DNA from: a virus
IMG/VR virus record: IMGVR_UViG_3300044490_000122
Location: 1-33,408 of that record
Length of the DNA: 33,408 nt
Direction: 5' to 3' (one strand)
Shown: positions 1,503 through 20,278 of the stretch, piece by piece
How the letters are laid out: each line of letters starts with the position of its first letter
Position numbering within the stretch: the stretch's first letter is position 1
Translations under genes and position numbers: made by a program
The notes under the pieces: generated by a model
Databases searched by the model: none
Told to the model about the DNA's origin: nothing
The model's input: the letters and a program-made list of their open reading frames with translations, nothing else

Positions 1503-1877
1503 ATGACTGAGGCAGACCGCTTGATGGAGATTCTGACCTCGGATGTCGAGGATCTGCCGGTGTTTGAGGAGGGGAACGGGAACGGCAGGAGGAAGGTTCC
1601 AGCCCTGGGTCCCCCTTCTTGGCTCGAGAATTCTAACTGGCAGGACGATCCGGCGTCGGGGAAGCTGGAAAAAATTAGATCAGTTTTCCTGAACGCTAAA
1701 ACTCCAGAGGAGGTGTACACTGCCGCTTCGGTGATGCCTATTGGAGACTGGATGGAAATGGTTGCAAAGCTTGGGAAGCAAGTTGACCCTGGGCAGGTGC
1801 AGATCACAAGTATCAGAATCGAACTGCCGCCTATAGGTTACAGCCGAGGCGAAGTGATCGAAATCGAGGTTCCCTGA
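1503..1877 (+). CDS. Putative terminase small subunit (124 aa)
   Basis: The product is called mainly from position: it sits directly upstream of the large terminase with a one-base stop/start overlap (TGATG), where small terminases normally lie. The 124 residues are acidic in the N-terminal half. They end in a helical segment (TPEEVYTAASVMPIGDWMEMV) followed by a hydrophobic strand tail, a layout seen in small packaging subunits. No clear DNA-binding helix-turn-helix is visible. The start at 1503 is preferred because AGGAGGGGG lies just upstream; in-frame ATGs at 1485, 1497 and 1413 are alternatives. If correct, it recognises the packaging site and loads TerL. It could instead be an unrelated small virion gene. 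Confidence 0.5.
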   Translation: MTEADRLMEILTSDVEDLPVFEEGNGNGRRKVPALGPPSWLENSNWQDDPASGKLEKIRSVFLNAKTPEEVYTAASVMPIGDWMEMVAKLGKQVDPGQVQITSIRIELPPIGYSRGEVIEIEVP

Positions 1878-3325
1878 TGTCAGAGCTGGCTTTAAATCCC
1901 TGGCTCGATGCAGGAAAAATCCAGCAGCAGTTTGTCCTGTCGCAAGACCTCGAGGCGTGTTTAATGGGTCCGAGAGGGGAAGGTAAAACCGAGGGGGGAA
2001 TCCGCCGGATGACCCTTCATGCAGGTGAGCAAGAACAATCCGTCCGGCCTATTCCCTGGGCAATTGTACGAGATACTTGGAAAAACCTCGAACGTACGAC
2101 TCTTAAGTCTTTCCTTCAGCCCCATCCGAATTCGTTTTCAGAAAAAATCCGTCCCCTCCTCAAGGTTTCTGGTGGTGGGGAGAAGATCGTTCTTCCGGGT
2201 TTCTGGGAAGCCCATTTATTCGGTGTTGATTCCCTTGGTGACTTAAGCCGCTTGCAATCTCTCCAACTCGGCGGGATATGGCTTGAAGAACCTGCCCCAG
2301 CTGCCGCTGAGGACATAGGCGGTGGGCTTGAGGAGAGGGTTGTGACTGTGGGGATTACGTCTCTGCGCCATCCCTGCGCATGGCGGACGGTTCAGATAAC
2401 GCAAAACTATCCAGACGAGGACCACTGGACCTGGCAGAGGTACTTCATTCGCAGAGAAGGCCGGTTGTTTAGAATTCCACGAGGGGAAAACCCCCATCTC
2501 CCGACTGACTACCGGGATAATATGGAGAGAGCCCTGGCAAATGACAAGGGCCTTCTCAATCGTTTGGTACTTGGCCAGCCTGGTTTTGTGTCACAGGGTG
2601 AGGCTGTGACACCTGAGTATGATTCTTTAGTCCACAGGTCGAATATTGACCTAGAGCCGTATCCGAATACAGTAGGCTATCGCTTTTGGGACGGGTACAG
2701 TAATCCGGCGTGTGTTATTGCCCAACTAACCCCCCGCGGTCAGCTGCAGGTATTTGAGGCCATTGTTGGAAAGGGGATGGGAGTTAAGCAGCTGATCAGA
2801 GACTTCGTCATTCCGGCTATATCCGAGCGGTATGGTGATGTCCCTGAGTGGGAAGACATCGGCGATCCTTCTATGGTGACGAAAGACCAGTCTGATTACG
2901 AGCAGTCAGCAGCTATGGTTATAGAAAAAGAATTGAAAACATTCTTTCGCCCTGGGCCGAAGGCTTGGTCGATTCGCCAACAGGGAATGAAAAACGCCCT
3001 TCTTGCTACTATTCCTGGAAATAAACCGTTCGTCTATCTGTCCGCCAGTCCCCTAGTCCAGCCTCTGCACCAGGCTCTCCGCGGTGGGTGGGCGTATAGG
3101 ATGTCTCCATCAGGGCTTAGAATCGGGACTATCCCAATGAAAAATCATCACTCACACCCAGCGGACGCTTTGTCCTACGGTGTTTGTGAGTTGCTGAGTA
3201 TGTCTGAAGGCGGGAGGATAGATCCTTATGTCCAGCCTAGTGTAGATTATTACATGGAAGAACTGATATTCCGCCAAACTCCAGGAATGGGATCTGTAGG
3301 CCGGGATCCAGTGACAGGTTACTGA
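1877..3325 (+). CDS. terL: Terminase large subunit, ATPase and nuclease (482 aa)
   Basis: This is the DNA-packaging motor, which cleaves concatemers and pumps DNA through the portal. The N-terminal ATPase shows Walker A GPRGEGKT at residues 31-38 and Walker B GIWLEE at 133-138, with the catalytic Glu at its end. A TQNYPDEDHW segment near 175-184 sits where the coupling motif is expected. The C-terminal RNase H-like nuclease has three acidic positions in the expected order: D272 (RFWDG), D330 (IGDPS) and D430 (HHSHPADALSYGV). The length of 482 is normal for the family and no residue is obviously missing. The ATG overlaps the upstream stop codon. The nuclease pattern and the portal type downstream fit a podovirus. 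Confidence 0.93.
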   Translation: MSELALNPWLDAGKIQQQFVLSQDLEACLMGPRGEGKTEGGIRRMTLHAGEQEQSVRPIPWAIVRDTWKNLERTTLKSFLQPHPNSFSEKIRPLLKVSGGGEKIVLPGFWEAHLFGVDSLGDLSRLQSLQLGGIWLEEPAPAAAEDIGGGLEERVVTVGITSLRHPCAWRTVQITQNYPDEDHWTWQRYFIRREGRLFRIPRGENPHLPTDYRDNMERALANDKGLLNRLVLGQPGFVSQGEAVTPEYDSLVHRSNIDLEPYPNTVGYRFWDGYSNPACVIAQLTPRGQLQVFEAIVGKGMGVKQLIRDFVIPAISERYGDVPEWEDIGDPSMVTKDQSDYEQSAAMVIEKELKTFFRPGPKAWSIRQQGMKNALLATIPGNKPFVYLSASPLVQPLHQALRGGWAYRMSPSGLRIGTIPMKNHHSHPADALSYGVCELLSMSEGGRIDPYVQPSVDYYMEELIFRQTPGMGSVGRDPVTGY

Positions 3326-3548: not shown

Positions 3549-6137
3549 ATGCTGACAGAAAAACGCCCGATCAAATGGCTTCTTGAAGCCCCAGATAAAA
3601 GCAACCTGGCTGATGAGCTGACTAGCAAGGAACTGAGCTACCTCGGCCAGGAAGTTGTGCGTCTATATCGCCTGGATCGGAATAACCGCCAGGATTGGGA
3701 TGCTTTATCTGAATCAGCGTTGAAGTTGGCGAAACAGGTTCGGGAACGCAAGACAACTCCGTGGGATAATTGCTCGAATGTCAAGCATCCGTTGATTACA
3801 GTTTCAACTATCCAATTTGCAGCCAGGGCGTATCCCGAGATCTGCAAAGGCAGTAAGGTTGTGAAGTGCCAAATCACCGGCGACGATCCGCCTGAGACTC
3901 CAATCCAACCCCAAGTTCCCCAGCAAATCCCTGGCCAGATGCAAACGATGCTTCCGCTACCTGGCCAAACCCCGGCTCAAATGGGCCAGATGCCCCTGAC
4001 GATCGGGGTTCAGGAAAAAAGCCCCAAACGCCAACGGGCTGATCGGATCGAGACTCACATGAACTTCCAGCTGACCCAAGAGATGGTTGACTGGGAGTCG
4101 GATATGGACACTCTCCTCCATGTCCTACCTGTCGTAGGTCAATGTTACAAGAAAACCTACTTCGACCCCGAACTCGATCACAATGTCTCCGAACTGGTCC
4201 TCCCTGATGACTGTGTTGTCAGTAAGTCGAAGATACGAGACATTAAAAAAGCCCGGCGGATTAGCCATCGCCTGTGGATCTACGATAACGATGCGCAGGA
4301 GAGAATGCGAGCTGACATCTGGCGGGAGGTTTCTCTTGGGGTTCCGCCTCTAGCCAGTCAAGACACCGACGCTCCGCATGAGTTCATCGAGCAGCATTGC
4401 TGGTATGACCTAGATGGGGATGGGTATAAAGAGCCTTATATCATCACAGTCCATCTTGTATCTGTTAAAGTCGTTCGTGTGCTGGCTCGGTGGCAGATGG
4501 AATCTGTGATTGCTGATAGGAAGAACGAAGTCAAGAAAATCATTCCTGACCATTACTTCACCCACTTTGGGTTTATCCCGAACCCAGATGGCTCGATCAA
4601 CTACCTAGGCTTTGGCCAGCTCCTCGAACCAATCAACTCATCCGTCAACACTGTCCTGAACCAGCTGATCGACAGTGGGACTCTATACAACACTGGCGGT
4701 GGGTTCCTTGGCCGGGGGATCAGGATGCGTGGGGGGACTTACACCTTCCAACCAGGGGAATACAAAACTGTTGATTGTCCAGGTGGGGCCTTGAAGGAAA
4801 ATATCGTCCCCTTGCCGACGAGAGAACCGTCAGTTGTTCTGTTCCAGCTCCTGGGTTTCCTCGTCCAGGCTGGGAAGGAAATCAGTTCTGTCCAAGATGT
4901 CTTAACTGGCGACGCGAAGCTGGCTGCTACGATGCCTGTAGGCACAATGATGGCCTTAGTGGAACAGGGGCTGAAGGTCTTCACTGCAATATACAAACGA
5001 ATCTACCGCTCGCTTAGCGAGGAGTTTAAGAAACTGTATTACCTGAACGCCAGGTATCTCGACCCTGTGACTTCGTTTTATGTGTCCGGGAACAAAAACC
5101 GGGTGGAGTTGTCTGACTACCGGGCTGATGATACTCTCGTGATGCCGGTGGCTGACCCGGATTTGTCCTCCGATATGCAGCGGTTGCTTAAGGGTCAGGC
5201 TTTGAAGGACTTAACTGGCCGACCGGGCCTCAACGAAGTGGCGATTACGAGGCAGCTGGTCCGGGCAATTAGACCAGAAAACATGCACGAAGTGTTGATG
5301 ACAGATGCCCAGATGTCTGGGAAGGAACCAATCCCCTGGGCTCCACCGCCTAACCCGCAGGTTATTCTTGCACAGGCTAAGGCGAATCATCTGAACGCCC
5401 GGGCACAGGAATCGGCTTTGCAGCTGCAGATGTCGTTGCAGAAGTTTGAGCTTGAGACGGAGGCGTTGCTGGCGGATATAGAGAACAAGAAAGCCGACAC
5501 GATGTTGAAGCTGGCGAAGGCTGAGGCTGCAGAGGCTGGCCTGCAGCTACAGCAATACGAAGCTGAGATGAATCATATATCAGAGCAAGTCAAAGCCAGA
5601 ATGGATGTGGTGAAAGAGCGAATTAAAGCTTTTGCTCAGCAACAGAAACAACTGGCTGATCAAGAAGGAATGACAGAGGTTCTGGAGAGTGATCAAGGTG
5701 GTATGGAAGGTCGAGCCTTTGGTGGCCCAGTGGACAGGGGAAACCCCTTTGTTGTCGGTGAACTTGGGCCTGAGTTGTATGTACCTTCTGGCAGCAACGA
5801 CAACCAAGAGCTGTCAAAGCTAATGGGAATCTTGAATCAGAACAAGAACCTCGAATATGTCCGGCGTATTCTAGCTCCATACAATTCTCCGGTAAAAGTC
5901 TACGACGATGATGGAACGATTGCCAGTCATATGATGATGTACAGCGATCATCCTGGTGGGAGAGGTTACATCAGTTTTCCGTCTATAGTGAATGATGAGG
6001 AAGGGTTCAGGGAACTGTCGCCTGATGAAGCTTACAGGCACGCTGTAAGAAGCAGACAATACATCCAGCATCCAACTAGAGAAGAAGCTGATTGGTTTTC
6101 TAAGAACTACAAAAAAGTATGGGGACCAATACAGTGA
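3549..6137 (+). CDS. Portal protein with coiled coil and C-terminal extension (862 aa)
   Basis: The portal forms the dodecameric DNA channel at the capsid vertex and docks the terminase and tail. Residues 1-570 resemble portals of podoviruses related to Bcep22 and BPP-1: a helical N-terminus, the segment WDNCSNVKHPLITVSTIQFAARAYPE, a Pro/Gln-rich insert near 118-150, and a long crown/stem region. Residues about 605-715 are a Gln/Ala/Glu-rich coiled coil. Residues 721-748 (GGPV...PFVVGELGPELYVP) match a motif usual at the ends of tape-measure proteins. Residues 779-862 form a separate small domain ending DWFSKNYKKVWG. At 862 residues it is longer than a standard portal because of this tail. 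The ATG follows GGGAT; palindrome P3 is just upstream. Confidence 0.88.
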   Translation: MLTEKRPIKWLLEAPDKSNLADELTSKELSYLGQEVVRLYRLDRNNRQDWDALSESALKLAKQVRERKTTPWDNCSNVKHPLITVSTIQFAARAYPEICKGSKVVKCQITGDDPPETPIQPQVPQQIPGQMQTMLPLPGQTPAQMGQMPLTIGVQEKSPKRQRADRIETHMNFQLTQEMVDWESDMDTLLHVLPVVGQCYKKTYFDPELDHNVSELVLPDDCVVSKSKIRDIKKARRISHRLWIYDNDAQERMRADIWREVSLGVPPLASQDTDAPHEFIEQHCWYDLDGDGYKEPYIITVHLVSVKVVRVLARWQMESVIADRKNEVKKIIPDHYFTHFGFIPNPDGSINYLGFGQLLEPINSSVNTVLNQLIDSGTLYNTGGGFLGRGIRMRGGTYTFQPGEYKTVDCPGGALKENIVPLPTREPSVVLFQLLGFLVQAGKEISSVQDVLTGDAKLAATMPVGTMMALVEQGLKVFTAIYKRIYRSLSEEFKKLYYLNARYLDPVTSFYVSGNKNRVELSDYRADDTLVMPVADPDLSSDMQRLLKGQALKDLTGRPGLNEVAITRQLVRAIRPENMHEVLMTDAQMSGKEPIPWAPPPNPQVILAQAKANHLNARAQESALQLQMSLQKFELETEALLADIENKKADTMLKLAKAEAAEAGLQLQQYEAEMNHISEQVKARMDVVKERIKAFAQQQKQLADQEGMTEVLESDQGGMEGRAFGGPVDRGNPFVVGELGPELYVPSGSNDNQELSKLMGILNQNKNLEYVRRILAPYNSPVKVYDDDGTIASHMMMYSDHPGGRGYISFPSIVNDEEGFRELSPDEAYRHAVRSRQYIQHPTREEADWFSKNYKKVWGPIQ

Positions 6138-6445
6138 AAAACCTCCCTATCTTCGACAAGGAAATCCTGATCTCCCCAGGCGAATGGCAATCCTGGCTCA
6201 ATCACCCGATCACCCAGGAATTCATGTCCGCCATCAAACGTGAGCGAGACGACTGGTCCAGGATGCAGGCGCAGGGGGAGCTTCTGAAAGAAGGAATGGG
6301 AACAATCGAGTGGTACGCGAAGTCTGTGGGGATAATCTACGGCCTTGAATACAGCCTTGAGGGCGTAGGCGAGGCCCTGAATGAACAATGGCGAGAGGCG
6401 GCTGAAAGGAAGGAAGCTGCGGAAAGAGAGAAAGAAAATGTTTGA
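6134..6445 (+). CDS. Small protein between portal and GroES-like gene (103 aa)
   Basis: Conserved-looking but of unknown function. The preferred start is the GTG at 6134, which overlaps the portal stop as GTGA and has GGGGA upstream; an ATG at 6119 is the alternative. The N-terminal half contains SPGEWQSWLNHPITQEFMSAIKRERDDW, a helical segment, and the C-terminal third is a charged helix (EQWREAAERKEAAEREKE) likely to form a coiled coil. It has no membrane segment or signal. Genes in this position in related podoviruses are usually small head-assembly proteins, so a role in the portal or capsid pathway is possible. The next gene starts eight bases before its end. Confidence 0.7.
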   Translation: MKNLPIFDKEILISPGEWQSWLNHPITQEFMSAIKRERDDWSRMQAQGELLKEGMGTIEWYAKSVGIIYGLEYSLEGVGEALNEQWREAAERKEAAEREKENV

Positions 6446-6770
6446 AAACACATCAGGAATCTGCAATCTCTGTGAATACAAGTGTTTGGTTTTGCCTGAT
6501 CCGGTAGAGGACAAGACTGAGGGTGGGATTCTCTACAAACCCGACATTGCGAAAGAGAGGGAGAAATACCGAACCTGCAAAGCAACTTTCATTCTCGCTG
6601 CGAAGGCTGCGTTCCAGGACTTTGGGAAGGATGGGAACCAGAGTTACATTCCCCAACCTGGAGACCGTGTCTACGTTGCGGTTGCTGCGGGGATGTTCCA
6701 CTACGGTCCGGATGGTAAGGAGTATCGTCTGGTAAACGACAAAGATGTTGTCGGCCAGCTTGATGAATAA
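6438..6770 (+). CDS. GroES-like co-chaperonin (110 aa)
   Basis: The product resembles the GroES/Cpn10 family, which caps GroEL during folding. Landmarks in GroES order are a first strand with YKCLVLPDP (14-22), a mobile-loop-like KTEGGILYKP (26-35) corresponding to the KSAGGI region of GroES, the PGDRVYVAVAAG strand (74-85) matching PGDIVIFNDGYG, and a final EYRLVNDKDVVGQLDE like the GroES EVLIMSESDILAIVE ending. An insertion around 45-70 replaces the usual roof region. The N-terminus carries CNLC-EYKC, which is unusual. T4 gp31 and related phage proteins replace host GroES for folding the capsid protein, and the position just before scaffold and capsid fits this. The start at 6438 overlaps the previous gene by eight bases. 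Confidence 0.72.
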   Translation: MFENTSGICNLCEYKCLVLPDPVEDKTEGGILYKPDIAKEREKYRTCKATFILAAKAAFQDFGKDGNQSYIPQPGDRVYVAVAAGMFHYGPDGKEYRLVNDKDVVGQLDE

Positions 6771-6788
6771 AGGAAAAAGGAAATCAAA

Positions 6789-7691
6789 ATGGACACCGAA
6801 CAACTAGGAACTCCCGAAGAAAGAGCCTCCAACATGGGCTGGAAGCCCAGGGAACAGTGGGTTGGTGACCCCGAAAGGTGGGTGCCAGCGGACCAGTTTA
6901 TTGAAAACGCTGATAGGCGTCTCGACTACGCTCGGAAGACGAATAAAAACCTCGAGAGGCAGGTGACTCAGTTGCAGAAATCGAACCTGGAACTTAAATC
7001 TGCCCTTGATGGCCTGCGTGGTGATATGGGAGAGTTCGTCAGCTTCCATAAGGACGCCGCAGATCGAGCTGCAAAGGCGGCTTACGCTCAGGCTTTGAAG
7101 GATGCTAAGGGAAAGCAAGAGGCTGCCTTCGAGAGCGGAAACAGAGACGCTTTCAATGCTGCAACGGCTGAGCTGGACCAGTTGATCCAGAGTCACCCAG
7201 CCGTAACTGGGCAGGCTGACAGAAAACCTGAGGTCAAACAGCCAGAGAAAAGAGAAGGCGGAACTGGCAATCCTGATCTCGACAAATGGCTAGAAGCCGA
7301 ACCTGGTGCATTGGATGACTGGCTCACAAAAAACCAGTGGTACAACGAAGACGCTGATATGGCTGACTATGCTGAAAAGGTCGATAGGCTTTTGCACCGA
7401 AAACACAGACTCGGCATTCCACAGTCTGAACAGTTAGAACTTGTGACAGAGGAAGTGAAGAAAAAGTTCCCGAGTTACAAAGACTGGACAAACAACGAGC
7501 GGAAAAAGGTTGCGACTGTGGAAAGCTCCGGTGACAGTGGGCCTGTCGCTGGCAAGAAGTCTTACGCCAGTCTGCCTCCTGAAGCTAAAAAACAGTGCGA
7601 CAAGTGGGCTGGGGTCGATGGCTCCGGGAAAACCGGCACGATGCCCGGATTCACTAGGGAAGAGTTCGTAAAAACCTACAAATGGGAATAA
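6789..7691 (+). CDS. Scaffolding protein (300 aa)
   Basis: This is an internal assembly scaffold that directs capsid protein into procapsids and is then removed. The sequence has the typical opening of this family (ERASNMGWKPREQWVGDPERWVPADQF, residues 11-37), then a long charged helical region (45-135) likely to be a coiled coil. A variable Pro/Gly-rich linker follows, then an acidic middle, and finally the conserved-looking tail SYASLPPEAKKQCDKWAG...YTREEFVKTYKWE-type ending, which in scaffolds contacts capsid protein. Its position two genes before the major capsid protein agrees. AAGGAAA precedes the ATG. The next gene could start inside the last codons (ATG at 7682), but a better start lies at 7706. 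Confidence 0.85.
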   Translation: MDTEQLGTPEERASNMGWKPREQWVGDPERWVPADQFIENADRRLDYARKTNKNLERQVTQLQKSNLELKSALDGLRGDMGEFVSFHKDAADRAAKAAYAQALKDAKGKQEAAFESGNRDAFNAATAELDQLIQSHPAVTGQADRKPEVKQPEKREGGTGNPDLDKWLEAEPGALDDWLTKNQWYNEDADMADYAEKVDRLLHRKHRLGIPQSEQLELVTEEVKKKFPSYKDWTNNERKKVATVESSGDSGPVAGKKSYASLPPEAKKQCDKWAGVDGSGKTGTMPGFTREEFVKTYKWE

Positions 7692-8892: not shown

Positions 8893-9795
8893 ATGATTAC
8901 TACTGGAACCAACCCGAAAGCAATGTGGCCTGGGATCAATGCTTGGTGGGGCGCTGCGTATAACGAAAAGCCCGCCCAGTGGACTGATCTCGTGGAGCAA
9001 CATACTTCTGAAATGATGTGGGAAGAGGACGTCGGCATCAGTGGCTTCCCGCTGGCTCAAATCAAGCCCTCTGGTAAAGGTATAACCTACGCCGATGAGC
9101 ATCAGGGATACATCAGCCGGTATACCCATATCGTCTGGTCCCTTGGCTACATCGTATCGTGGGAAGAGATGCTTAACAACCTGTACGAGCAGGTCGCCAA
9201 ACGCCGGACCCAGCGGCTGGCCTTCTCTATGCGCCAGACCAAAGAGTGGAACGTTGCTAACATCTACAACCGGGCGTTTAGCAACTCCTACCTCGGCGGT
9301 GATGGTGTGTGCTTGTGCAGTGCGAGCCACCCGACCAGTGCTGGCCTTCAGAGCAACGTACCGTCCAGTGCCCTTGACATATGCGAACTCGGTATCGAGG
9401 ACATGATGGTCAAGATCGGCACTGCCACCAACGACATGGGCCATCCGGTTGGTCTGATCGGCCAGTCCCTGATCGTTCCCTGGCAGTTATTCTACGAAGC
9501 TAACCGGATTCTGGAGAGCGTTCTGCAGAACGACACTGCGAATAACGCGATCAATGCCCTGCGGACCACCAACGCGTTGCCCCAGGGGATCAAGGTGAAC
9601 AACTACCTAACCGATGCTGATAACTACTTTATCCGCACCGACTGTCCAGATGGGGTGAAGTTGTTCCAGCGGTATCCGTTGACCTTCGATGAGGACAACG
9701 ACTTCGATACCAAGAACCAGAAATACGCCGCTGTGGATTACTACAGCGTCGGCTGGTCCGACTGGCGGCAGGTGTATGGGTCGAATCCTGCGTAA
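8893..9795 (+). CDS. Major capsid protein (300 aa)
   Basis: The main head shell subunit, expected to have the HK97 fold. Supporting features are the opening MITTGTNPKAMWPGINAWWG, typical of this capsid family in podoviruses; the segment about 75-120 with SRYTHIVWSLGYIVSWEEMLNNLYEQVAKR, like the E-loop/spine-helix region; the LCSASHPT segment near 140, typical of mu-type and related capsids (LFS-H-); and the late A-domain-like strands YFIRTDCPDGVKLFQRYPLTF. The length of 300 is normal. GGGGG lies eight bases upstream. It follows scaffold and decoration genes and precedes palindrome P4, which ends the head-gene block. The first ten residues recur in the 56-aa protein starting at 13521. Confidence 0.88.
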   Translation: MITTGTNPKAMWPGINAWWGAAYNEKPAQWTDLVEQHTSEMMWEEDVGISGFPLAQIKPSGKGITYADEHQGYISRYTHIVWSLGYIVSWEEMLNNLYEQVAKRRTQRLAFSMRQTKEWNVANIYNRAFSNSYLGGDGVCLCSASHPTSAGLQSNVPSSALDICELGIEDMMVKIGTATNDMGHPVGLIGQSLIVPWQLFYEANRILESVLQNDTANNAINALRTTNALPQGIKVNNYLTDADNYFIRTDCPDGVKLFQRYPLTFDEDNDFDTKNQKYAAVDYYSVGWSDWRQVYGSNPA

Positions 9796-9810
9796 ACCTT
9801 TGTGGGTGGT

Positions 9811-9841
9811 AGGTCCCGTGTTAAAATTTAACGCGGGAACT
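9811..9841. repeat. Dispersed palindrome P4
   Basis: The core is at 9820-9832, with arms AGGTCCCGT and GCGGGAACT. Next to the core the pair is T-G, a wobble if transcribed rightward; the rest pairs apart from one outer G-A mismatch. It lies in a 99-bp gap between the capsid gene and the beta-helix fibre gene, 53 bp before the latter's start, and has no T-tract after it. Confidence 0.92.
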
Positions 9842-9894
9842 ACCGCCCCACATTTCCGGTGGGTCTTAGGCCCCAATTCTGAAGGAGAGCGGAA

Positions 9895-11139
9895 ATGCCT
9901 GAGTTAAATGCGATGTCTAACTACCCAGCTGGTTTCAGGACTGGCCTCAGTGTACGCGGGGCTCCGATTCTGAACACCTATGGGGGACAAGTTTTCTGGG
10001 TCGATAGCGGTGGTCCTGGGGCTGATAATGGTAATGGAACCTACCAGCGGCCTTTCAAGACCATCGACTACGCTATCGGTAAGTGCACGGCCAGTAACGG
10101 CGATGTTATCATCTGCAAAGCTGGCCACGCTGAGACTTTAACCTCCGCCGGCGCGATTACCTGCGATGTTGCTGGCGTGACGATTATGGCTGCTTCAGGG
10201 GCAGTCGGCTCCTTGAAGCCTGCCTTGACCTTTAGTTCCACTGACAACAGCGCGTCGGTTTTGGTGACTGCTGCTCAGGTCAGCATCATCGGCATTCTCG
10301 GTATTTGCAATGATGATGCTCTGACTAACCCTTTCCACATCCAGGCTGCTGATTGCTTCCTGGACATCGAGTGGCGGGATGGCTCTGATGCGATTGAGGC
10401 TGCTACTGTAGTTCTGACCACAGCCGCGGCTGATCGGCTTACTGTCAACCTCCGTTATCTTGGGTATACCACAGGCAACGCTTGTGTGGCCCCGATTAAG
10501 CTGGTTGGCTGTAACGGCGGCAGAATCTTCGTTGACTTCTACGGTTTGGCCAGCACTGCGGTTGTGAACTTCGCCTCGACTGCATGTTCCGACATCGAGA
10601 TCGAGGGGTACTTCTACAATGAGAGTGCGGCGCTGACTAAGAATGTCGTTGATACCATCACCGGCTCGACTTGGTTTGTTAAGGGCTACGACGGCAAGGG
10701 TGGGTATAGCTTCAGTGGCGGCTCAGCTGCTGCTGTGGCTGTGGATGACATCTCGACTGTTGCCACCTATGCTAGCACGGCTTCAAGCCAAGCTGCCTCA
10801 GTGGGCATTCAGACTTCCGCTGTCGCCAGCCAGACTGCCTCGGTCGGGGTTCAGGCGTCTACTGTGCAGTCCAAGACTGATTCTGTGGGTCTGACTGCAT
10901 CTACGACAAATTCAAAGACTGACAGCGTTGGCCTCACCGGATCTACTAACATCAGTAAAGTTGATTCTGTTGGAATAAGTTCTTCCACAGGTATCAGCAA
11001 AATTGACTCTGCTGGCCTCACCGGCTCTACCAACGTCAGCAAAACCGACTCAGTCGGGATTAACACCTCCACAATCATCAGCACCCTGGCAAGCATCGCT
11101 GCCCGGATTTCGATGATTGCTAGCAAGGAAGGTTTGTAA
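9895..11139 (+). CDS. Beta-helix fibre protein with 14-residue repeats (414 aa)
   Basis: A probable head- or tail-attached fibre. Residues 1-65 include FWVDSGGPGADNGNGTYQRPFKTIDYAIGKC and GDVIICKAGHAETL, the classic start of a right-handed parallel beta-helix (pectate-lyase-like). Residues 65-280 continue as short strands rich in T, V, A and G. Residues 297-394 are seven tandem 14-residue units (consensus SKTDSVGLTGSTNI), then a helical tip ending RISMIASKEGL. The repeats should make an extended trimeric stalk. AGGAGAG is well placed before the ATG. It lies directly after the capsid gene and before a methyltransferase and two glycosyltransferases, so it is a plausible substrate for glycosylation at its many Ser/Thr residues; that link is inference. 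Confidence 0.7.
   Translation: MPELNAMSNYPAGFRTGLSVRGAPILNTYGGQVFWVDSGGPGADNGNGTYQRPFKTIDYAIGKCTASNGDVIICKAGHAETLTSAGAITCDVAGVTIMAASGAVGSLKPALTFSSTDNSASVLVTAAQVSIIGILGICNDDALTNPFHIQAADCFLDIEWRDGSDAIEAATVVLTTAAADRLTVNLRYLGYTTGNACVAPIKLVGCNGGRIFVDFYGLASTAVVNFASTACSDIEIEGYFYNESAALTKNVVDTITGSTWFVKGYDGKGGYSFSGGSAAAVAVDDISTVATYASTASSQAASVGIQTSAVASQTASVGVQASTVQSKTDSVGLTASTTNSKTDSVGLTGSTNISKVDSVGISSSTGISKIDSAGLTGSTNVSKTDSVGINTSTIISTLASIAARISMIASKEGL
10783..11076 (+). repeat. Coding tandem repeat, 42 bp, seven units
   Basis: Seven successive 42-bp units encode the 14-residue motif of the fibre stalk (residues 297-394). Units 3-7 are closest (SKxDSVGL...); units 1-2 are more diverged (SQxASVG). Such repeats change number easily by slippage or recombination, so fibre length may vary between related phages. 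Confidence 0.85.
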
Positions 11140-11141
11140 GG

Positions 11142-11651
11142 TTGAGTTACTCTATCGAACAATCAGCCGCTTATCTGTCGCATCTACCGCTGTTATCGGC
11201 GGCTGTATCTGTTACTACCGGCCCTGTCCTTGAGCTAGGGGCGGGGCTCGGTAGTACCTATCTGTTGCATGGTATGTGTGGGGTTAGTAGGCGGAAGTTG
11301 CTGACCATCGAGTCAGATGAAAACTGGATGCAGCGGTTTATGAAGTTCGGTAGGCCCTGGCACCAGTTCAAAAAGGTAGATGATTATCAAGACTTACAGG
11401 AATACAAGGAACCTTGGGGATTGGCGTTTGTAGACCACGGGCTTTATAAACAGCGGGGACATTCCATTCTGCAGCTTAAGCATGTGCCGATAGTGGTAGT
11501 TCACGATACTTGCTACCCGTGGCTTTATGATTATGTAAATACTCTAAGTCACTACAAATACCGCTGGGACTGGCAGTTGAATGGCCCGCAGACGACTGTG
11601 GTTAGCGACATTAAAGATATAAGGAAGATATTCGGAGGAATGGGATTGTGA
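11142..11651 (+). CDS. Class I methyltransferase-like protein (169 aa)
   Basis: The sequence has the Rossmann-type SAM-binding motif I, VLELGAGLGSTYLL, at residues 29-42 and an acidic residue after the second strand (LLTIESDENW). A later GLAFVDHGLYKQRG and VVVHDT resemble motifs IV-VI of small sugar- or peptide-modifying methyltransferases. The start is a TTG at 11142, just after the fibre gene stop, with GGAAGG about nine bases upstream; an alternative ATG would remove motif I. It overlaps the next gene by four bases. With the two glycosyltransferases that follow it probably forms a modification cassette, perhaps methylating a glycan or a virion protein. The substrate is unknown. Confidence 0.65.
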   Translation: MSYSIEQSAAYLSHLPLLSAAVSVTTGPVLELGAGLGSTYLLHGMCGVSRRKLLTIESDENWMQRFMKFGRPWHQFKKVDDYQDLQEYKEPWGLAFVDHGLYKQRGHSILQLKHVPIVVVHDTCYPWLYDYVNTLSHYKYRWDWQLNGPQTTVVSDIKDIRKIFGGMGL

Positions 11652-12493
11652 GTGGGGACATAGCGATTGTCTGTTACATAGACAAAGATCAATGGATAGA
11701 GCAGGAATTCCTGTGGCTGTTGAAGTCGTGGTATTACAGTGGCGGATGGATGGTTTCTGATCTTGTTGTTTTTCACCATCCAGATGTTCAGGGGCTGCCA
11801 GTGGATAATAGTATAAAATATATTCCCCTGCAGGCTTTTGCGGATAAGTATCCTGAGTGGACTGGCTATCGGTTTATTAACAGCATCGGATATATGTCAG
11901 AGCCGGAGGCAGGGATTTTAGCTGAATACAAATATGTTTTGAGGACTGACTGTGATTGCTTTCTGACGCCGTACTTCAGGAACTTCCGTCCCAGACTCAC
12001 TACCTTCGGGGCGGGTCAGTATGCAGAAACGCCGGAAGTGGTCCACCGCCTGACAGACATCGCGGCTAAGTGGGGGATAGCCCCTGGGTTTAACAACATC
12101 GGATCTACAGTCATGGGCTTCGCTTCGAGGGTGATAACATACTCTTTGATTCAGCTTGAGTTCTGCAAGAAGCTTCGGGAAGAAGAATTCAAAGATGGAA
12201 TGGGCCAGTGGCCAGGATGGTGGTTTGGTACTCTGTCAATGTACGCCGGGCAGCTGGCGGCCTGGGCTTACTTTGGTCCGAATATGACTATGGGTGGCTT
12301 GGACTGTCATTGCCTCTCACACGATGATATATCACCGAGCGACTACCATATCCACGCATGGCATACTTACGAGCACTTCAGCAAGTTCAACTGGCGTGAG
12401 GGAAAGTACCGCGGGCGGGATATGGGCAGCCTAGACATAACCAAAATCGCTGATTACTGTCTGTGGATTGCCGGAGACGGTCCATGCGGATAG
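11648..12493 (+). CDS. Glycosyltransferase-like protein, GT-A type with DxD (281 aa)
   Basis: Likely a nucleotide-sugar transferase. The N-terminus MSGDIAIVCYIDKDQWIEQEFLWLLKSW resembles the first strand-helix of GT-A enzymes, and LRTDCDCFLTP (98-108) carries the DxD metal-binding motif (D101, D103) after a hydrophobic strand. A later segment with FNNIGSTVMGFASRV and AWHTYEHFSKFNWREGKYRGRDMG fits the acceptor half. The GTG start has GGAGGAATGGGATT upstream and overlaps the previous gene by four bases; the end overlaps the next gene by ten. It resembles uncharacterised viral and bacterial GT-like proteins more than any named enzyme, so the donor and acceptor cannot be stated. Confidence 0.6.
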   Translation: MSGDIAIVCYIDKDQWIEQEFLWLLKSWYYSGGWMVSDLVVFHHPDVQGLPVDNSIKYIPLQAFADKYPEWTGYRFINSIGYMSEPEAGILAEYKYVLRTDCDCFLTPYFRNFRPRLTTFGAGQYAETPEVVHRLTDIAAKWGIAPGFNNIGSTVMGFASRVITYSLIQLEFCKKLREEEFKDGMGQWPGWWFGTLSMYAGQLAAWAYFGPNMTMGGLDCHCLSHDDISPSDYHIHAWHTYEHFSKFNWREGKYRGRDMGSLDITKIADYCLWIAGDGPCG

Positions 12494-13524
12494 TCCACTT
12501 TGCTCCCTTTGCTCCCAATGGCTGTGGTCTGTATGAAGCGGCTAGGGATATGGTAGTGGCGGACTTGAACCAAGGCCATGATTCTAAACTTGTGGACACT
12601 GGAATTTTCATCAACGGAGAGTGTATTGGTGGTCAGGGCAGGGTAGATTTAGAAGACACAAGAAGCCGGTCTTCTATAAGAACCCACAGCCCGCTTGTGG
12701 CCAGGGACGCTGATGTGTTGATTGCTCACACTGGAGCGCCTGATCCGTGGTATTCTGTGTGTCAAGCTCCTTTGATATGGATGCTGCATGGTAGGCCCCA
12801 GGCTTGTTTTAGACCAGAGCAATACGGAAACGGCAGCTCATTTTCCCTAATGGCGAACATAGCTGAGTGGCCCAGGACAAAGGCTATGATTTCATTCTGG
12901 CCGTATCACAGGCAGTTCTGGAGCCCGATTATTCCTGACCATAAACTGTTTTGCTTTGATGCTCCTCCTGTGGATTGTATGAGGTTTTCTCCAGACGGCC
13001 CAAGGCATGATTTTGGTGTGATGGGGGGCAAGGTTAATGTTATCCTAGCAGATTCAAGAAGGGAAGATGTCGATCTGTATGAAATAACAAACGGAGCGAT
13101 TGCCTTTGCCAGAGCTAACCACGGAGTCAAGTTCCACTTCTACGCTATGGAAGAGCCTCTGCGATGTTGGGAGTATATGATAAGGGAACTGAAAACACTT
13201 GGGGCTCTCGGAGAAGTATGGGCGAGGCGTCCGAATATGGAGGAGGTGTTCAGGGCTGCTGATGTCGTTTTGTCGCCTCATAGGATCACGACCAGGGTGA
13301 TTGCAGAGGCCCTGTGCTGCGGGACTCCGGTGATTGCTGCTGATGGATGTGTTCATGCTACATGGACCTGTAGACCAGATGACCCGGAGAGTGTGTCTAG
13401 TGCTATTGAGGCGGCTGTTGGACAGTACAAGGAAGTTGGCAGTAAAGTGAGTGAAGTCGCAAAGGAATTCTCTTTATCCAAATACAGCCTATCAATGGAG
13501 AGCGTCTTTGACGCTGTGTTATGA
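12484..13524 (+). CDS. GT-B glycosyltransferase, family 4-like (346 aa)
   Basis: A GT-B fold glycosyltransferase is suggested by the opening MRIVHFAPFAPNGCGLYEAARDMV, the usual first strand and Gly-rich loop of GT4 enzymes. The C-terminal donor domain has VNVILADSRREDVDLYEITNGA, KFHFYA, EEVFRAADVVLSPHRITTRVIAEALCCGTPVIA (about 253-285), including the Glu of the EX7E-like region (E275), and a final helix. The ATG at 12484 is favoured, with GGAG nearby and a ten-base overlap with the previous gene; a GTG at 12463 is possible. Together with the neighbours it would glycosylate virion proteins or alter host surface sugars. Confidence 0.75.
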   Translation: MRIVHFAPFAPNGCGLYEAARDMVVADLNQGHDSKLVDTGIFINGECIGGQGRVDLEDTRSRSSIRTHSPLVARDADVLIAHTGAPDPWYSVCQAPLIWMLHGRPQACFRPEQYGNGSSFSLMANIAEWPRTKAMISFWPYHRQFWSPIIPDHKLFCFDAPPVDCMRFSPDGPRHDFGVMGGKVNVILADSRREDVDLYEITNGAIAFARANHGVKFHFYAMEEPLRCWEYMIRELKTLGALGEVWARRPNMEEVFRAADVVLSPHRITTRVIAEALCCGTPVIAADGCVHATWTCRPDDPESVSSAIEAAVGQYKEVGSKVSEVAKEFSLSKYSLSMESVFDAVL

Positions 13525-13691
13525 TAACAACTGGAACATTTCCAAAAGCTCTGGAGGGTGGAAAGATGGCTAAGAAGCAGATGGAAAAGATGGGGAAGAA
13601 AAACGGCGGCAAGACTCCGAAAGCGCCGCCTCCTGCCGGTAAGGTATCTCCCCGGAAGCAGATGGCTATGGGAGGCAAGTGCCCTAAGTAA
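13521..13691 (+). CDS. Lys-rich small protein with capsid-like N-terminus (56 aa)
   Basis: Two starts are possible. The ATG at 13521 overlaps the stop of the glycosyltransferase gene (ATGA) and gives 56 residues starting MITTGTFPKALEGGK. The ATG at 13566 has GGAGG ten bases upstream and gives 41 residues, MAKKQMEKMGKKNGG and onward. The longer form begins with a match to the major capsid protein (MITTGTNPKAM), nine of ten residues identical, with most codon differences synonymous. The rest is a Lys/Gly/Pro tail ending GGKCPK. A small basic head protein or DNA-binding peptide is conceivable; a remnant of a second capsid gene is another explanation. Function unknown. Confidence 0.55.
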   Translation: MITTGTFPKALEGGKMAKKQMEKMGKKNGGKTPKAPPPAGKVSPRKQMAMGGKCPK

Positions 13692-13704
13692 TTTAACCCA
13701 AACG

Positions 13705-13751
13705 TCCTGAAACGCCCTGTGAGGGGCGTGGAGAGACACCACGTTTCAGGA
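13705..13751 (+). promoter_or_regulatory. 5' leader hairpin covering a ribosome binding site
   Basis: CCTGAAACG (13706-13714) pairs perfectly with CGTTTCAGG (13742-13750), plus one flanking T-A pair; the 3' arm includes the first bases of the Shine-Dalgarno CAGGAGG for the gene at 13761. A second hairpin, ACGCCC (13712-13717) with GGGCGT (13724-13729), shares ACG with the 5' arm, so the full-length forms exclude each other. This is a possible translational switch; no known riboswitch family is recognised. Confidence 0.5.
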
Positions 13752-13760
13752 GGATTCAAA

Positions 13761-14453
13761 ATGTCTTCGCCAGTTCGGTATTCTGATGGTGTTACGAATG
13801 TAAGCAGCGACAAAACGATGGGGCAATTTCTGGCCCCTGATCCCACCAAGGTTCACCTCTTCTTCGACGACTTCGATACCTATACCGCCGGTCAGTGGAC
13901 CGTGACCGAGACCAATGCTGCGGCTACCGAGGCTCTAACTGACGGCGACGGTGGCTTGCTTCTCATCACCAACACTAACCTCGAGAACGACGCGGTTTCG
14001 ATGCAGAAGGTTGGCGAATCCTTTCTCATGGCGACAGGGAAAAAGGCCTGGTTCAAAACCAGGTTCCAGGTCTCTGAAGGTACTCAGGTCGATCTGCTGA
14101 TGGGTCTGGCTATCACTGACACGACTCCGCTAAACGCCTCTGATGGTGTGTTCTTCAGGAAGGATGATGGAGACACCAATGTGGATTTTATAGTCGTCAA
14201 AAACTCTGTTGAGTCTAGCCTTGAGGGTGTTGGTACGATGGCCAGTGGGACTAATATCATCCTCGGCTGGTACTACGATGGGTTGACTACCTTCTACATC
14301 TACGTCAACGATGTTCTGGTTGGGACATTGAGCTACACTGCGGCCAGCTTCCCTAATGACGAAGAGTTAACTGTCACCATGCACCACGAGACTGGGGCTG
14401 CTGGCGCCCAGACTATGACTGTGGATTACATCTTGGCTGCTAAGGAGAGATAA
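13761..14453 (+). CDS. Concanavalin-A-like beta-sandwich virion protein (230 aa)
   Basis: Probably a structural or carbohydrate-contacting virion protein. The segment LFFDDFDTYTAGQWTVTETNAAATEAL, then GGLLLITNTNLENDAVSMQKVGESFLMATGKKAWFKTRFQVSEG, is the pattern of a jelly-roll (LamG/concanavalin-A-like) sandwich, followed by LMGLAITDT and GVFFRKDDGDTNVDFIV and later strands to the C-terminus. No signal or membrane segment. The start has AGGAGGATTCAAAATG, an excellent ribosome site partly paired in the upstream hairpin. Such proteins occur in phage head or tail gene clusters as decoration or fibre-associated proteins; the exact place in the virion is not known. Confidence 0.65.
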   Translation: MSSPVRYSDGVTNVSSDKTMGQFLAPDPTKVHLFFDDFDTYTAGQWTVTETNAAATEALTDGDGGLLLITNTNLENDAVSMQKVGESFLMATGKKAWFKTRFQVSEGTQVDLLMGLAITDTTPLNASDGVFFRKDDGDTNVDFIVVKNSVESSLEGVGTMASGTNIILGWYYDGLTTFYIYVNDVLVGTLSYTAASFPNDEELTVTMHHETGAAGAQTMTVDYILAAKER

Positions 14454-16631: not shown

Positions 16632-18860
16632 ATGATTATCAATATCACCTATCCAAAATTCAAAGCCTTTACAACATCCAGCGGGTCAATGCAGTATGCC
16701 TCTGGGTATAAGGTATGGGCGTTTGCTGCCGATCAGGTTCCGTCTTTGTTGACGGCGGTTAATACCTATTCTGATCCTGATTGCACAGTTCTAAATACTT
16801 GGCCTGTTGTTCTAGATTCTGTTGGCGAGGCGAGTATCTATGTTAACGTAGACGTGAAGCTTGCTTTCGCGTCTTCGACTGGTGATTGGTCGTCTCCAAT
16901 TTGGACTATTGACAATCTGTCAAAGCAGCAAAACACTACTATTGTATCTGGTGAAGCGACAGCTGGGACTACGAACAACAACTATGTCTGTGATGTGGTC
17001 CCGCCGTTTACGTCTCTGCCGAACAATCTTACCTTGGTAATGACCCCTGATGTAGATAACACTGCTACCCTTGGGGTTACAACCCAGACTGGTTCTGGAA
17101 TAAACGATCTCACATTCACCGGCCCCTACATTGGCTCGACATCTGGTTCCGTGTTCACTGTCGAGGTGATGGGTGTTGGGGTTCCGGTGGCTGTGACGAT
17201 AGCCGAGAATGTTGCTGCTGGGCTGGTGACGGCAGGGAATCACTACGTTAAGATTGTGGCTGTGACAGCAACAGGTGATTCTTTGCCAAGTGCAGCGTCT
17301 AATGTTGTTAACGCGGCTGGGGCAAGGAAGATTGATGTGACTGGTATCCCGGCCATAAGCAGCTTGATCACTGGATATAAAATCTACATGACCAAGGCTG
17401 GTGGGACAGTTTATTACTACGTTGCTACGGTGACGGCTACTACCTACACAATCAACGTGGCTGACGCTGGGCTTGTAACAGAGATAAACGTCGCCCAGAC
17501 CGCTGATGACTGGATTAGATGGAGGAAGGATGGGGGTGCTTGGACTGATCAGGTTGTTATAACTGCAACTGCTCAGTCGATGATTGAGGGGGTGTCTTTC
17601 GCTTTTGCTCAGAAGATAAATCACACAGTCGGGGACATCTGGACTGTTGATGTGACTACCCCGGCGAGGTTGAATTTCTGCGGTCTTGGTAATAAGCTAA
17701 TCTACAAAAACGAAGCTGGATTTCTTGTAGGTCTCGGCGGTGGGGATATGCAGGAAGACTATCCTGCTACCTTGGTCTATTCACTTAGCCAAGACTGCTG
17801 GATTTTGAATAATCCATCTTTGCCAGTTTTGACTTCGTTGATTCCTTCTAGATACAGAAAAAGAGTAACAGCAAACTACACTCTCTTAGCCGCTGACAAA
17901 GGGACGGAGATTAGCTGCTACGGAACTTTCACAGTTACATTGCCTGACCCAGCGACACTTCCTCATACGTTTTACTATGTGTATAACGAAGGGGCTGGGA
18001 CGATAACTATTGATGCCGGAGCCTTCACCATCTTCGGCCCAGGGCAATCTGTAGCTGGAGCTTCGACGTTTAAACTGACTCCAACTGGAATCATGGCCGT
18101 TCAGCTTGGGACTAATGGAGTTGATTGGCATATTCTAACCACGAGTCTGCCTGTTGGTGCGGCTCCTGGATTCACGAAGAATCTTGTAATCCAGAACAAC
18201 GCTGTGACTCCGAACACTAAAATAGACATCGACGCTGATACAGTTGTGGTGTCTGATGGGACTAACTATTACACAGCGACATCGGTTAACTTGACAGTGG
18301 ATGGGGGTGTAGTCGGAGCCAACGGAATCGACGCCGGGGCTTTGGCTTCGCCTAATTGGTACTATCAATATGTAATCTACAACGTGAACACTCTAACAGT
18401 CGCCGGGCTGATGTCTCTGTCAGCGACAGCTCCGACGATGCCTTCTGGGTATACGTTCAAGAAGCTAGTCGGGGCGGCGAGATACACTGGAGGCCAGTTT
18501 AGACCTTTCTACCAGAATGGAGATGATGTTTACCTGAATCAAGTTTCTGTGGTTGCTACTTGGGCCGGGTCTCCTTATGTTTTGACTAGCATAGCAGACA
18601 TCGTGCCAGCCCAGGCTGTTGCGGCGTCTTTCAAGCTGTCAGGTCTGGGCGGCGGGGCTGCTTCGTCTTATTTCTTTATTGCCTGGACAGGCGCGGCTGC
18701 TGGAGAGTTAGAACTCGGCTTCGGAGCTGTCGGGGTCACCTACATGATGACGTTCAATGACTACAGATTGAATCCTGCGGCTCCTCAGACTGTCTATTTA
18801 ATGACAACTGACGGAAACGTCGATCTCGACGTGACTGGCTTCAAGATGAGGCTATCGTAA
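16632..18860 (+). CDS. Multidomain tail fibre / tailspike (742 aa)
   Basis: A receptor-binding or side-fibre protein. Residues 1-98 (PKFKAF...YKVWAF...YSDPDC...WPVVLDSVGEASIYVNVDVKLAF...WTIDNL) match the capsid-proximal domain typical of podophage tail fibres. Residues about 190-285 form an immunoglobulin/fibronectin-like strand set. Residues 405-500 (ANYTLLAADKGTEISCYGTFTVTLPD...TITIDAGAFTIFG) and 520-650 (NTKIDIDADTVVV...GIDAGALASPNWYYQYVIY...PSGYTFKKLVGAARY) are modules widely found in phage fibres. No enzyme motif is evident. It lies between the gp4-like and gp10-like genes; its stop overlaps the next start (TAATG). The ribosome site is weak (CAGGTTATTAAAG). Confidence 0.8.
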   Translation: MIINITYPKFKAFTTSSGSMQYASGYKVWAFAADQVPSLLTAVNTYSDPDCTVLNTWPVVLDSVGEASIYVNVDVKLAFASSTGDWSSPIWTIDNLSKQQNTTIVSGEATAGTTNNNYVCDVVPPFTSLPNNLTLVMTPDVDNTATLGVTTQTGSGINDLTFTGPYIGSTSGSVFTVEVMGVGVPVAVTIAENVAAGLVTAGNHYVKIVAVTATGDSLPSAASNVVNAAGARKIDVTGIPAISSLITGYKIYMTKAGGTVYYYVATVTATTYTINVADAGLVTEINVAQTADDWIRWRKDGGAWTDQVVITATAQSMIEGVSFAFAQKINHTVGDIWTVDVTTPARLNFCGLGNKLIYKNEAGFLVGLGGGDMQEDYPATLVYSLSQDCWILNNPSLPVLTSLIPSRYRKRVTANYTLLAADKGTEISCYGTFTVTLPDPATLPHTFYYVYNEGAGTITIDAGAFTIFGPGQSVAGASTFKLTPTGIMAVQLGTNGVDWHILTTSLPVGAAPGFTKNLVIQNNAVTPNTKIDIDADTVVVSDGTNYYTATSVNLTVDGGVVGANGIDAGALASPNWYYQYVIYNVNTLTVAGLMSLSATAPTMPSGYTFKKLVGAARYTGGQFRPFYQNGDDVYLNQVSVVATWAGSPYVLTSIADIVPAQAVAASFKLSGLGGGAASSYFFIAWTGAAAGELELGFGAVGVTYMMTFNDYRLNPAAPQTVYLMTTDGNVDLDVTGFKMRLS

Positions 18861-20278
18861 TGCCAGAAGAAAACCCCATGCAGTTTCCGTTTGTGGTAGA
18901 TGGTCTACGGGGAGACGTCCCGACGAACTTCTATCCTGCGTCGGATTCTGAGAGGGGAGTGATTCTATACCCAACGCCGGGGCTGCTTGAGCATTGTCAG
19001 CTGACGGACTGCTCTGAAATCAGGGGCATATTGGCGTGGAATAATTATCTGTACGTCGTTGCTAGAAGAGGGAGCCAGTCAGCTTTCTGGCGTGTTGATG
19101 GAGTTGGGGCGTTTGCTGAACTCGGAACGATAACTACAAGTGCATCTGGTCCTGTGTGGATAAAGAATAATTCTACGCAGATTTTGATTGTGGATGGGGT
19201 GAGTGGGTATGTCTACACTCCGAGTTCAAACGTCTTTGTCCAGGTAACTGACGCGGATTTCCCTGGTGCAGGGGCTGCGGATTATCTAGATGGCTATGGG
19301 CTGTTCTTTACACCCGGCACGAACCAGTGGTTTCACAGCGAACTGTACGACTTTTTGGATTTTGATGCTTTAGATTTCTACACAAAGGAAAGTACCCCTG
19401 ACAACATCCGTTCGATGTTGGCTTATGCTAGGGAGCTTTACATCTTTGGGGTGTCTAAAGGAACTGAAGTCTGGCATAACTACGGCGGGGATAATTCCTC
19501 AGCCGACAACCCGACTTTCGCGAGGGATCCTGGTGGCCTAATCCAGCATGGATGTGGGGCCGCTGCGTCTCCAAGCACAATGGACGGAGAACGGGTGACG
19601 TGGATAACTGATCAGGGACAGCTGATGCAGGCTGTTAGATACGAATCTCAGGTTGTCAGCAGCCAGATGTTCGATCGGGCTCTGCGGGGGTACGCGTCTT
19701 ATTCAGATGCTGTTGCTTTTAGCTACAGAGATCAAGGTCATGTGTTTTATCAGGTGTCATTTCCAGCTGCTGACGAGACGTGGGTGTTAGATGGAAATAC
19801 TAAAGTTTTCCACAAGCGGTCTAGTTACAAATCAATAGGGGGCTATGGACGACACAGAGCGAACTGCTACGCCCTGCTGAACGGTGTTCACTACGTTGGC
19901 GACTACACAAACGGCAAGGTTTATAAGATGTCTGTTGATTACCTTAGCGACAACGGCAATAACATCCAGCGGAAACTTTACAGCAGAGAATGGGAAGGCG
20001 GTTTGAATAGGTTGTTTTTTCCTCCTGTCCAGTTAATTGTAGAACCTGGTGTAGGTCTTGTCGGTGGCGTGGCTCCTCAGATTGGCCTCGAGTGGTCTAG
20101 CGATGGGGGTCACAACTGGAGCACGATGCTGACTGCGTCAGCTGGTGCAACTGGTGACTATGGAGCTAGGGCAATATGGAGACAACTTGGCTCTGGCTTC
20201 CGGAGAATGTACCGGATGACGTTTACTGATCCTGTCGTATGGAAGGTTTTGGGGATTGACTGGGGTGGATTCAAGTGA
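18860..20278 (+). CDS. Tail hub / DNA stabilisation protein, P22 gp10-like (472 aa)
   Basis: Similar in length (about 470) and layout to P22 gp10, the beta-propeller that plugs below the gp4 ring and closes the tail. The start QFPFVVDGLRGDVPTNFYPASDSERGVILYPTPGLLEHCQLTD is typical, followed by repeated strand blocks (RGILAWNNYLYVVARRG, IVDGVSGYVYT, YLDGYGLFFTPGTNQWFHSELYD). Then comes the RSMLAYARELYIFGVSKGTEVW segment and the end GFRRMYRMTFTDPVVWKVLGIDWGG. Its stop overlaps the small gene that follows as GTGA. Related proteins in BPP-1-like and Bcep22-like phages occupy the same place. No membrane or signal sequence is present. Confidence 0.85.
   Translation: MPEENPMQFPFVVDGLRGDVPTNFYPASDSERGVILYPTPGLLEHCQLTDCSEIRGILAWNNYLYVVARRGSQSAFWRVDGVGAFAELGTITTSASGPVWIKNNSTQILIVDGVSGYVYTPSSNVFVQVTDADFPGAGAADYLDGYGLFFTPGTNQWFHSELYDFLDFDALDFYTKESTPDNIRSMLAYARELYIFGVSKGTEVWHNYGGDNSSADNPTFARDPGGLIQHGCGAAASPSTMDGERVTWITDQGQLMQAVRYESQVVSSQMFDRALRGYASYSDAVAFSYRDQGHVFYQVSFPAADETWVLDGNTKVFHKRSSYKSIGGYGRHRANCYALLNGVHYVGDYTNGKVYKMSVDYLSDNGNNIQRKLYSREWEGGLNRLFFPPVQLIVEPGVGLVGGVAPQIGLEWSSDGGHNWSTMLTASAGATGDYGARAIWRQLGSGFRRMYRMTFTDPVVWKVLGIDWGGFK

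Follow-up and report, generated by a model that had tools for sequence, protein, structure and literature searches.

A probable portable module for a glycosylated head fibre, built on a Ser/Thr-rich stalk and its neighbouring glycosyltransferase, in uncultured phages

The question raised by the viral record IMGVR_UViG_3300044490_000122 is what a methyltransferase and two glycosyltransferases do in the midst of phage virion genes. This record, analysed at its full length of 33,408 bases and hereafter called the window, has a podovirus-like virion block in which a fibre gene is followed by genes for a class I methyltransferase (MT), a glycosyltransferase with a predicted GT-A fold (GTA), and a GT-B, GT4-like glycosyltransferase (GTB). 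A sequence-only reading of this DNA had proposed that these enzymes modify the fibre or the capsid, with masked epitopes or a change in adsorption as conceivable effects. Our analysis makes it probable that the locus represents a portable glycosylated head-fibre module, in which GTB starts O-glycosylation of the Ser/Thr-rich stalk of the fibre, GTA extends the glycan, and MT caps it. The stalk as acceptor, the order of the steps, the location on the head, and the target of methylation are inferred from sequence, predicted folds, and co-inheritance of the genes.

The gene order given in that reading, with the fibre right after the major capsid gene and the three enzymes behind it, was confirmed by the coordinates and by the tight or overlapping junctions (Table 1). 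Its description of three overlapping genes holds for the enzymes; the fibre gene is separated from MT by a 2-nucleotide (nt) gap. The relatives of GTB begin at the internal ATG 12484, which results in a 10-nt overlap with GTA. The palindromes P4 and P5, said to enclose the cassette, were recovered as a strong hairpin and an inverted repeat, respectively.

The distribution of these genes among viral contigs defines which of them belong together. In the wider scan for GTB, a Ser/Thr-rich stalk was encoded just upstream of GTB in 40 of the 42 GTB-encoding contigs, with at most one non-enzyme gene, or MT and GTA, in between. In the two contigs without a stalk, only 123 and 582 nt of DNA precede GTB; metagenome contigs may be fragments. 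Eleven of the 42 contigs were new in this last scan, and 10 of them carry the stalk, the eleventh being one of the two cases cut by the contig end. The rule used to recognise stalks was passed by 44 of the 322 plus-strand open reading frames (ORFs) of at least 150 amino acids (aa) in the GTB loci, nearly all of which were the GTB-paired stalks.

A similar result was obtained in a scan blind to the enzymes, for which a stalk profile was built solely from stand-alone stalks of other phages and then applied to all fibre-head proteins. After clustering of the fibre-head homologues at 95%, both the stalk and the enzymes were present in 4 clusters, only one of the two in none (0/0), and neither in 55 (Fisher p = 2.2e-6); clustering at 60% gave 4, 0, 0, and 23, respectively (p = 5.7e-5). 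For all fibres the corresponding numbers were 9 with both, 0 with the stalk only, 3 with an enzyme only, and 59 with neither (p = 3e-9). The three "GT only" clusters were considered as counter-examples and rejected: the stalks of contigs L148, L152, and L155 are Ser/Thr-rich (0.53, 0.55, and 0.52), and they were missed by the profile owing to other repeat letters or a score slightly below the cut-off. A scan based on the stalk N-terminus revealed two further contigs, both with GTB.

All four genes in identical order were found in L003 and L004 (capsid 75% identical to that of the window), L006 (31%), and L002 and L005 (no capsid similarity). In L002 the fibre is conserved in its stalk part only, and all the enzymes are present. 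The head domain of the window fibre has 441 matches in viral contigs, many of them directly downstream of a gene of about 300 aa in the capsid position, and most of these relatives have different C-termini and lack the enzymes. An initial idea, joint movement of the entire fibre with the four-gene cassette, was therefore dropped, since the head is dispensable and MT and GTA are optional. The tie between cassette and fibre suggested by the sequence-only reading, for which comparative genomics had been named as the check, holds for the Ser/Thr stalk but not for fibres sharing the head with another C-terminus. At its smallest, the unit comprises the Ser/Thr stalk and GTB, and many phages have just these two; a stand-alone stalk protein beginning with MAYTLKGKLDSIG is common among them.

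One could argue that the stalk and GTB are co-transferred cargo, linked by position rather than by chemistry: the evidence for the link is all positional, and block transfer alone would yield co-occurrence. We consider this quite unlikely, because upon recombination within the fibre gene the association tracks the stalk and not the head, as seen in L002 and in the fibres with other C-termini, and because the pairing persists at 34–58% GTB identity and where, as in several loci, an additional gene separates its members. Extra genes between a stand-alone stalk and GTB were located at L173:5100-5720, L187:3488-3976, and L207:3260-3796, and perhaps encode a fibre tip. Two further loci differ from the window in their fibres: at L029:3438-5994 two tandem fibre-head paralogues lie directly upstream of MT-GTA-GTB, and L033, with a window-type capsid and a stalkless fibre, lacks GTA and GTB and retains MT together with a GT2-like gene (5989-7121). 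The latter case may be an exchange of enzymes that went along with stalk loss, and it supports the link of the stalk with GTB.

The properties of the stalk agree with the role of acceptor that the module would assign to it. Its Ser/Thr-rich character, noted from the sequence, was upheld: Ser and Thr make up 37% of the last 144 residues and 45% of the densest stretch of 60 residues, the highest value among the proteins of the window. The Ser/Thr pattern has a periodicity of 14 (autocorrelation 0.54), and the repeat exists only at the protein level, as no tandem repeat was detected in the DNA of the fibre gene. The spacings of the S-V-G motif are mostly 14, along with 7, 11, 18, and 21, resembling those in coiled coils of heptads and hendecads. 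A heptad register was fitted on hydrophobic a and d positions, with no score given to Ser or Thr. In the window stalk this register is unbroken, and the Ser/Thr fraction is 0.53, 0.84, and 0.56 at positions b, c, and f versus 0.06 at both d and e; for all stalks the values are 0.44, 0.68, and 0.58 at b, c, and f versus 0.15, 0.13, and 0.17 at a, d, and e. The register was better than in shuffled sequences for nearly all stalks, with z of 1.0 for L152 and from 2.7 to 10.1 for the rest. The stalk thus reads as a predicted coiled coil with exposed Ser and Thr at b, c, and f, and this placement would mean an outward display, which is a requirement for an O-glycan acceptor. Among acceptor candidates D-S-V-G recurs most often, and it is kept in L156 although many other Ser and Thr residues have been lost there.

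Major head proteins of three kinds precede the stalk and GTB unit: phrog_371, which is the window type; phrog_10/617 (L002, L005, L148, L152, and L155); and phrog_422 (L150, L165, and their kin), a siphovirus type in which major tail and tape-measure genes follow. Siphoviruses with this last capsid are the most frequent among the stalk and GTB phages found here. In all three capsid lineages the unit lies between the capsid and the connector or tail genes, and this shared position suggests, from synteny, that the fibre is a head fibre. The enzymes could instead glycosylate another virion protein, such as the major capsid or a decoration protein, the fibre being just a neighbour. The unit does adjoin capsid genes, and capsid and tail-tube subunits of mycobacteriophages are glycosylated (PMC12619734, PMC11256854). 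Nevertheless, this alternative is unlikely: the same stalk and GTB pair accompanies capsid proteins of three unrelated kinds, while the similar capsids of L007 (76% identity) and L009 (75%) are accompanied by neither a stalk nor the enzymes. Of the two targets named in the sequence-only reading, the fibre is well supported by co-inheritance and can be narrowed to its stalk, and the capsid has become less likely.

On the GTB phylogenetic tree, holders of MT and GTA form one group (98/95) nested with relatives that have the stalk and GTB only, and phages with stand-alone stalks form another (100/100); the labels require the minimum possible number of changes. The MT and GTA group spans two capsid lineages, the window type and the phrog_10/617 type. 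The stalk and GTB are thus the shared unit, and MT and GTA a later elaboration, most simply explained by a single gain.

Searches of 50,697 records of isolated phages with the sequences of GTA, GTB (two queries), and MT revealed no match, and a search with the fibre gave a single weak match, to the head. No relative was found with the GTB and GTA profiles in 84,980 bacterial and archaeal genomes. The impression that such a cassette rarely lies between capsid and tail genes is accurate for isolates (0 in 50,697 phage records); in uncultured viruses, however, the unit normally occupies just this place. The joint passage of the stalk fibre and its enzymes between otherwise unrelated phages suggests that many uncultured phages may carry a portable, self-sugar-coated head fibre. 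Distant relatives of MT with 29–37% identity were also noticed in L034-L056, mostly near position 6000, in runs of 4–10 genes. These runs also encode GT2 glycosyltransferases, further methyltransferases, and a radical SAM/SPASM protein and, judging by this content, are larger glycan cassettes of other uncultured phages.

The enzyme classes proposed from the sequence were upheld by structural models and family searches. Profile searches of PDB sequences yielded no match for MT and only a weak one for GTA, to Bcs3 (E 0.03), and for this reason fold predictions were made. The AlphaFold (AF2) model of MT, with a mean predicted local distance difference test score (pLDDT) of 91.4, matched class I S-adenosylmethionine (SAM) methyltransferases in the PDB, and its Rossmann methyltransferase fold and E/DxGxGxG motif I are those of this class. 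Residues E31, G33, G35, D98, H99, H121, and D122 are invariant across 28 relatives, and the D98-H99 and H121-D122 pairs look catalytic. For the sugar O-methyltransferases (Methyltransf_24/TylF-like), the match of MT to Pfam Methyltransf_24 (E 0.084) is below the cut-off, and the 28 relatives have no clear Pfam family. GTA was assigned to Pfam DUF7164 (E 9e-35), the sole Pfam family at E up to 1, and its D101 and D103 are invariant among relatives. Its model (pLDDT 73, predicted template modelling score 0.78) resembles GT6 and GT8 enzymes; the best structural match is BoGT6a (Z 15.6, root-mean-square deviation 3.7 over 214 residues), and Foldseek found an alpha-1,3-galactosyltransferase (E 2e-5). 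The predicted fold is thus GT-A of the GT6 type, while no sequence match to the GT6 family model was found in Pfam at E up to 1 and the identity in structural alignments is 7–10%. We read DUF7164, on the basis of this model, as a probable GT-A glycosyltransferase family that is not GT6 by sequence. GTB clears the curated cut-off of Pfam Glyco_trans_1_4 (28.4 versus 27 bits), and GT4 enzymes rank top in its profile search of the PDB.

Modification of the host envelope, for example of lipopolysaccharide, leading to superinfection exclusion or serotype conversion, is known for temperate phages (see also PMC12619734) and would be another use for such enzymes. It appears improbable here, given the overlapping genes within the virion block, their strict pairing with a stalk gene, and the hydropathy of the enzymes, which, unlike typical gtr clusters, have no 19-residue stretch of strong hydrophobicity (mean hydropathy at most 1.58). 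The least probable target is phage DNA: although DNA is frequently modified by phage glycosyltransferases (PMC12619734), a link to DNA genes is absent from all loci, and the pairing with a virion stalk gene holds in three backbones.

In the glycosylated-stalk module, the head of the fibre would be beta-helix-like and its stalk a coiled coil that exposes Ser and Thr side chains at positions b, c, and f. As the sole enzyme always present, GTB is the most likely maker of the first stalk linkage; it would put the first sugar on a stalk Ser or Thr, with the Ser in the recurring D-S-V-G as the most plausible site. GTA, with its GT6-like fold of a retaining-type GT-A enzyme, would add a further sugar, and MT would O-methylate the glycan product, a methyl capping that is plausible. 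Modification by these enzymes would take place in the cytoplasm, on freshly synthesised fibre that has yet to be attached to the capsid.

Several points weigh against this scheme. Its support consists of sequence, fold, and gene association, and gene adjacency alone cannot prove the acceptor. The fold of MT leaves its substrate undefined, and the confidence of the GTA model is moderate. In alignments of GTB the usual E-x7-E of GT4 enzymes is altered, with R274 in place of the first Glu and the second, E282, invariant, so its chemistry may differ. D-S-V-G is not universal, since the stalks of L148, L150, and L152 have other Ser/Thr repeats. Finally, the retained fibre-head set comprises the best 80 of the 441 matches.

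More tentatively, and with slightly more doubt than confidence on our part, one could hypothesise a virus-restricted self-decorating stalk, in which a coiled-coil Ser/Thr ladder and a dedicated initiating glycosyltransferase make up an exchangeable cartridge. Such a cartridge would have been fitted to the heads of three or more unrelated capsid lineages, would have acquired a second sugar and a methyl cap in a single upgrade, and would give uncultured phages a mucin-like coat. Should the proposed glycosylation of the stalk hold, the acceptor and its enzyme are one small pair of neighbouring genes. The GTB family and DUF7164, a GT-A family with no assigned function, would gain a concrete, testable substrate; virion glycosylation in tailed phages would be modular and mobile, bound to a fibre stalk instead of a capsid lineage; and V-D-S-V-G heptads would serve as a signature for predicting glycosylated fibres in metagenomes.

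Table 1. Features of the window around the proposed head-fibre module.
Feature	Position (strand)	Remarks
Large terminase	1877-3325	
Portal	3549-6137	
Major capsid protein	8893..9795 (+)	Defines the backbone; phrog_371 major head protein, E 4e-7; 48% identity with annotated capsid proteins in phage records
P4 hairpin, capsid/fibre intergenic	~9801-9851 (+)	Inverted repeat; RNA fold -37.2 kcal/mol, z -4.96
Fibre gene	9895-11139 (+)	414 aa; good ribosome-binding site; directly 3' of the major capsid gene
Fibre head domain, beta-helix-like	9895..10749 (+)	Fold inferred from sequence pattern; 441 relatives among viral contigs
Ser/Thr-rich stalk, proposed glycan acceptor	10750..11136 (+)	Repeat unit of 14 residues (two heptads), with the pattern V-D-S-V-G-x-x / x-S-T-x-x-S-K
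MT, class I SAM methyltransferase, proposed to cap by O-methylation	11142..11651 (+)	TTG start, 2 nt past the fibre stop
GTA, GT-A fold glycosyltransferase, Pfam DUF7164, proposed extending enzyme	11648..12493 (+)	Overlaps MT by 4 nt; D101-x-D103
GTB, GT-B/GT4-like glycosyltransferase, proposed initiating enzyme	12484..13524 (+)	ORF opens at 12463; likely ATG 12484
P5 inverted repeat	13700..13756 (+)	3' arm holds the ribosome-binding site (AGGAGG) of the next gene (ATG 13761)
Head closure	18860-20278	
Internal protein	24154-30171	2005 aa

Further virion genes come after the fibre and enzyme block. The window gene at 13719-14453, downstream of the module, has a relative in L007 (hhalign probability 93%, E 3e-7) that is the immediate downstream neighbour of the capsid gene there; this is consistent with the module being an insertion between the capsid gene and 13719-14453. 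A DNA-level search of positions 9500-14000 against phages gave no match. The P4 hairpin is a possible processing or attenuation site, and P5 could control translation of the gene that begins with ATG 13761. A small Lys/Pro/Gly-rich ORF of 41 aa (MAKKQMEKMGKKNGG...) lies at 13566-13691, between GTB and the next virion gene. A GroES-like co-chaperonin is encoded at 6381-6770, with a sub-threshold match to Cpn10 (E 0.008) and a position matching that of annotated GroES genes in related phages.

Among known systems, the same head domain and gene position are found in post-capsid beta-helix fibre or decoration proteins of uncultured podovirus-like phages, most of which, unlike the window fibre, have other C-termini and no enzymes. 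In organisation only, the unit is like the loci of serine-rich repeat adhesins of the Fap1/GspB type (PMC5207161), in which the adhesin gene has the gene for the initiating enzyme as its neighbour and the set of later-acting enzymes is variable: here, too, a Ser-rich repeat protein gene adjoins the putative initiating glycosyltransferase. However, adhesin glycosylation is initiated by the two-protein complex Gtf1/Gtf2 (GtfA/GtfB), and export uses an accessory Sec system (PMC5207161), whereas here there is one GT-B enzyme and a phage structural protein. With a single glycosyltransferase in the stalk and GTB-only units, the unit would work like an adhesin locus without being a member of that group, and the likeness is an analogy, homology not being claimed. 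The same applies to A064R of chlorovirus PBCV-1, which contains two glycosyltransferase domains and a methyltransferase (PMC9614988) and so resembles the two glycosyltransferases and the capping O-methyltransferase proposed here to act on a virion glycan; it differs in being one fused protein that acts on the N-glycan of a capsid protein of a eukaryotic virus (PMC9614988). A further comparison is with mycobacteriophages. According to the passages on this subject in PMC12619734 and PMC11256854, citing Freeman et al. 2023, the capsid and tail-tube subunits of Che8 and other phages carry glycan, and in Maravista the glycosylation genes are located towards the 3' end of its genome. This glycosylation reportedly shields virions against anti-phage immune responses (PMC12619734, PMC11256854). 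In both cases phage-encoded glycosyltransferases are proposed or shown to modify virion subunits, and, as in phage virion glycosylation systems, a glycosyltransferase is genetically tied to a virion protein, here GTB in 40 of 42 contigs. In contrast to mycobacteriophages, the proposed acceptor here is a repeat stalk directly adjoining its enzyme in a portable unit.

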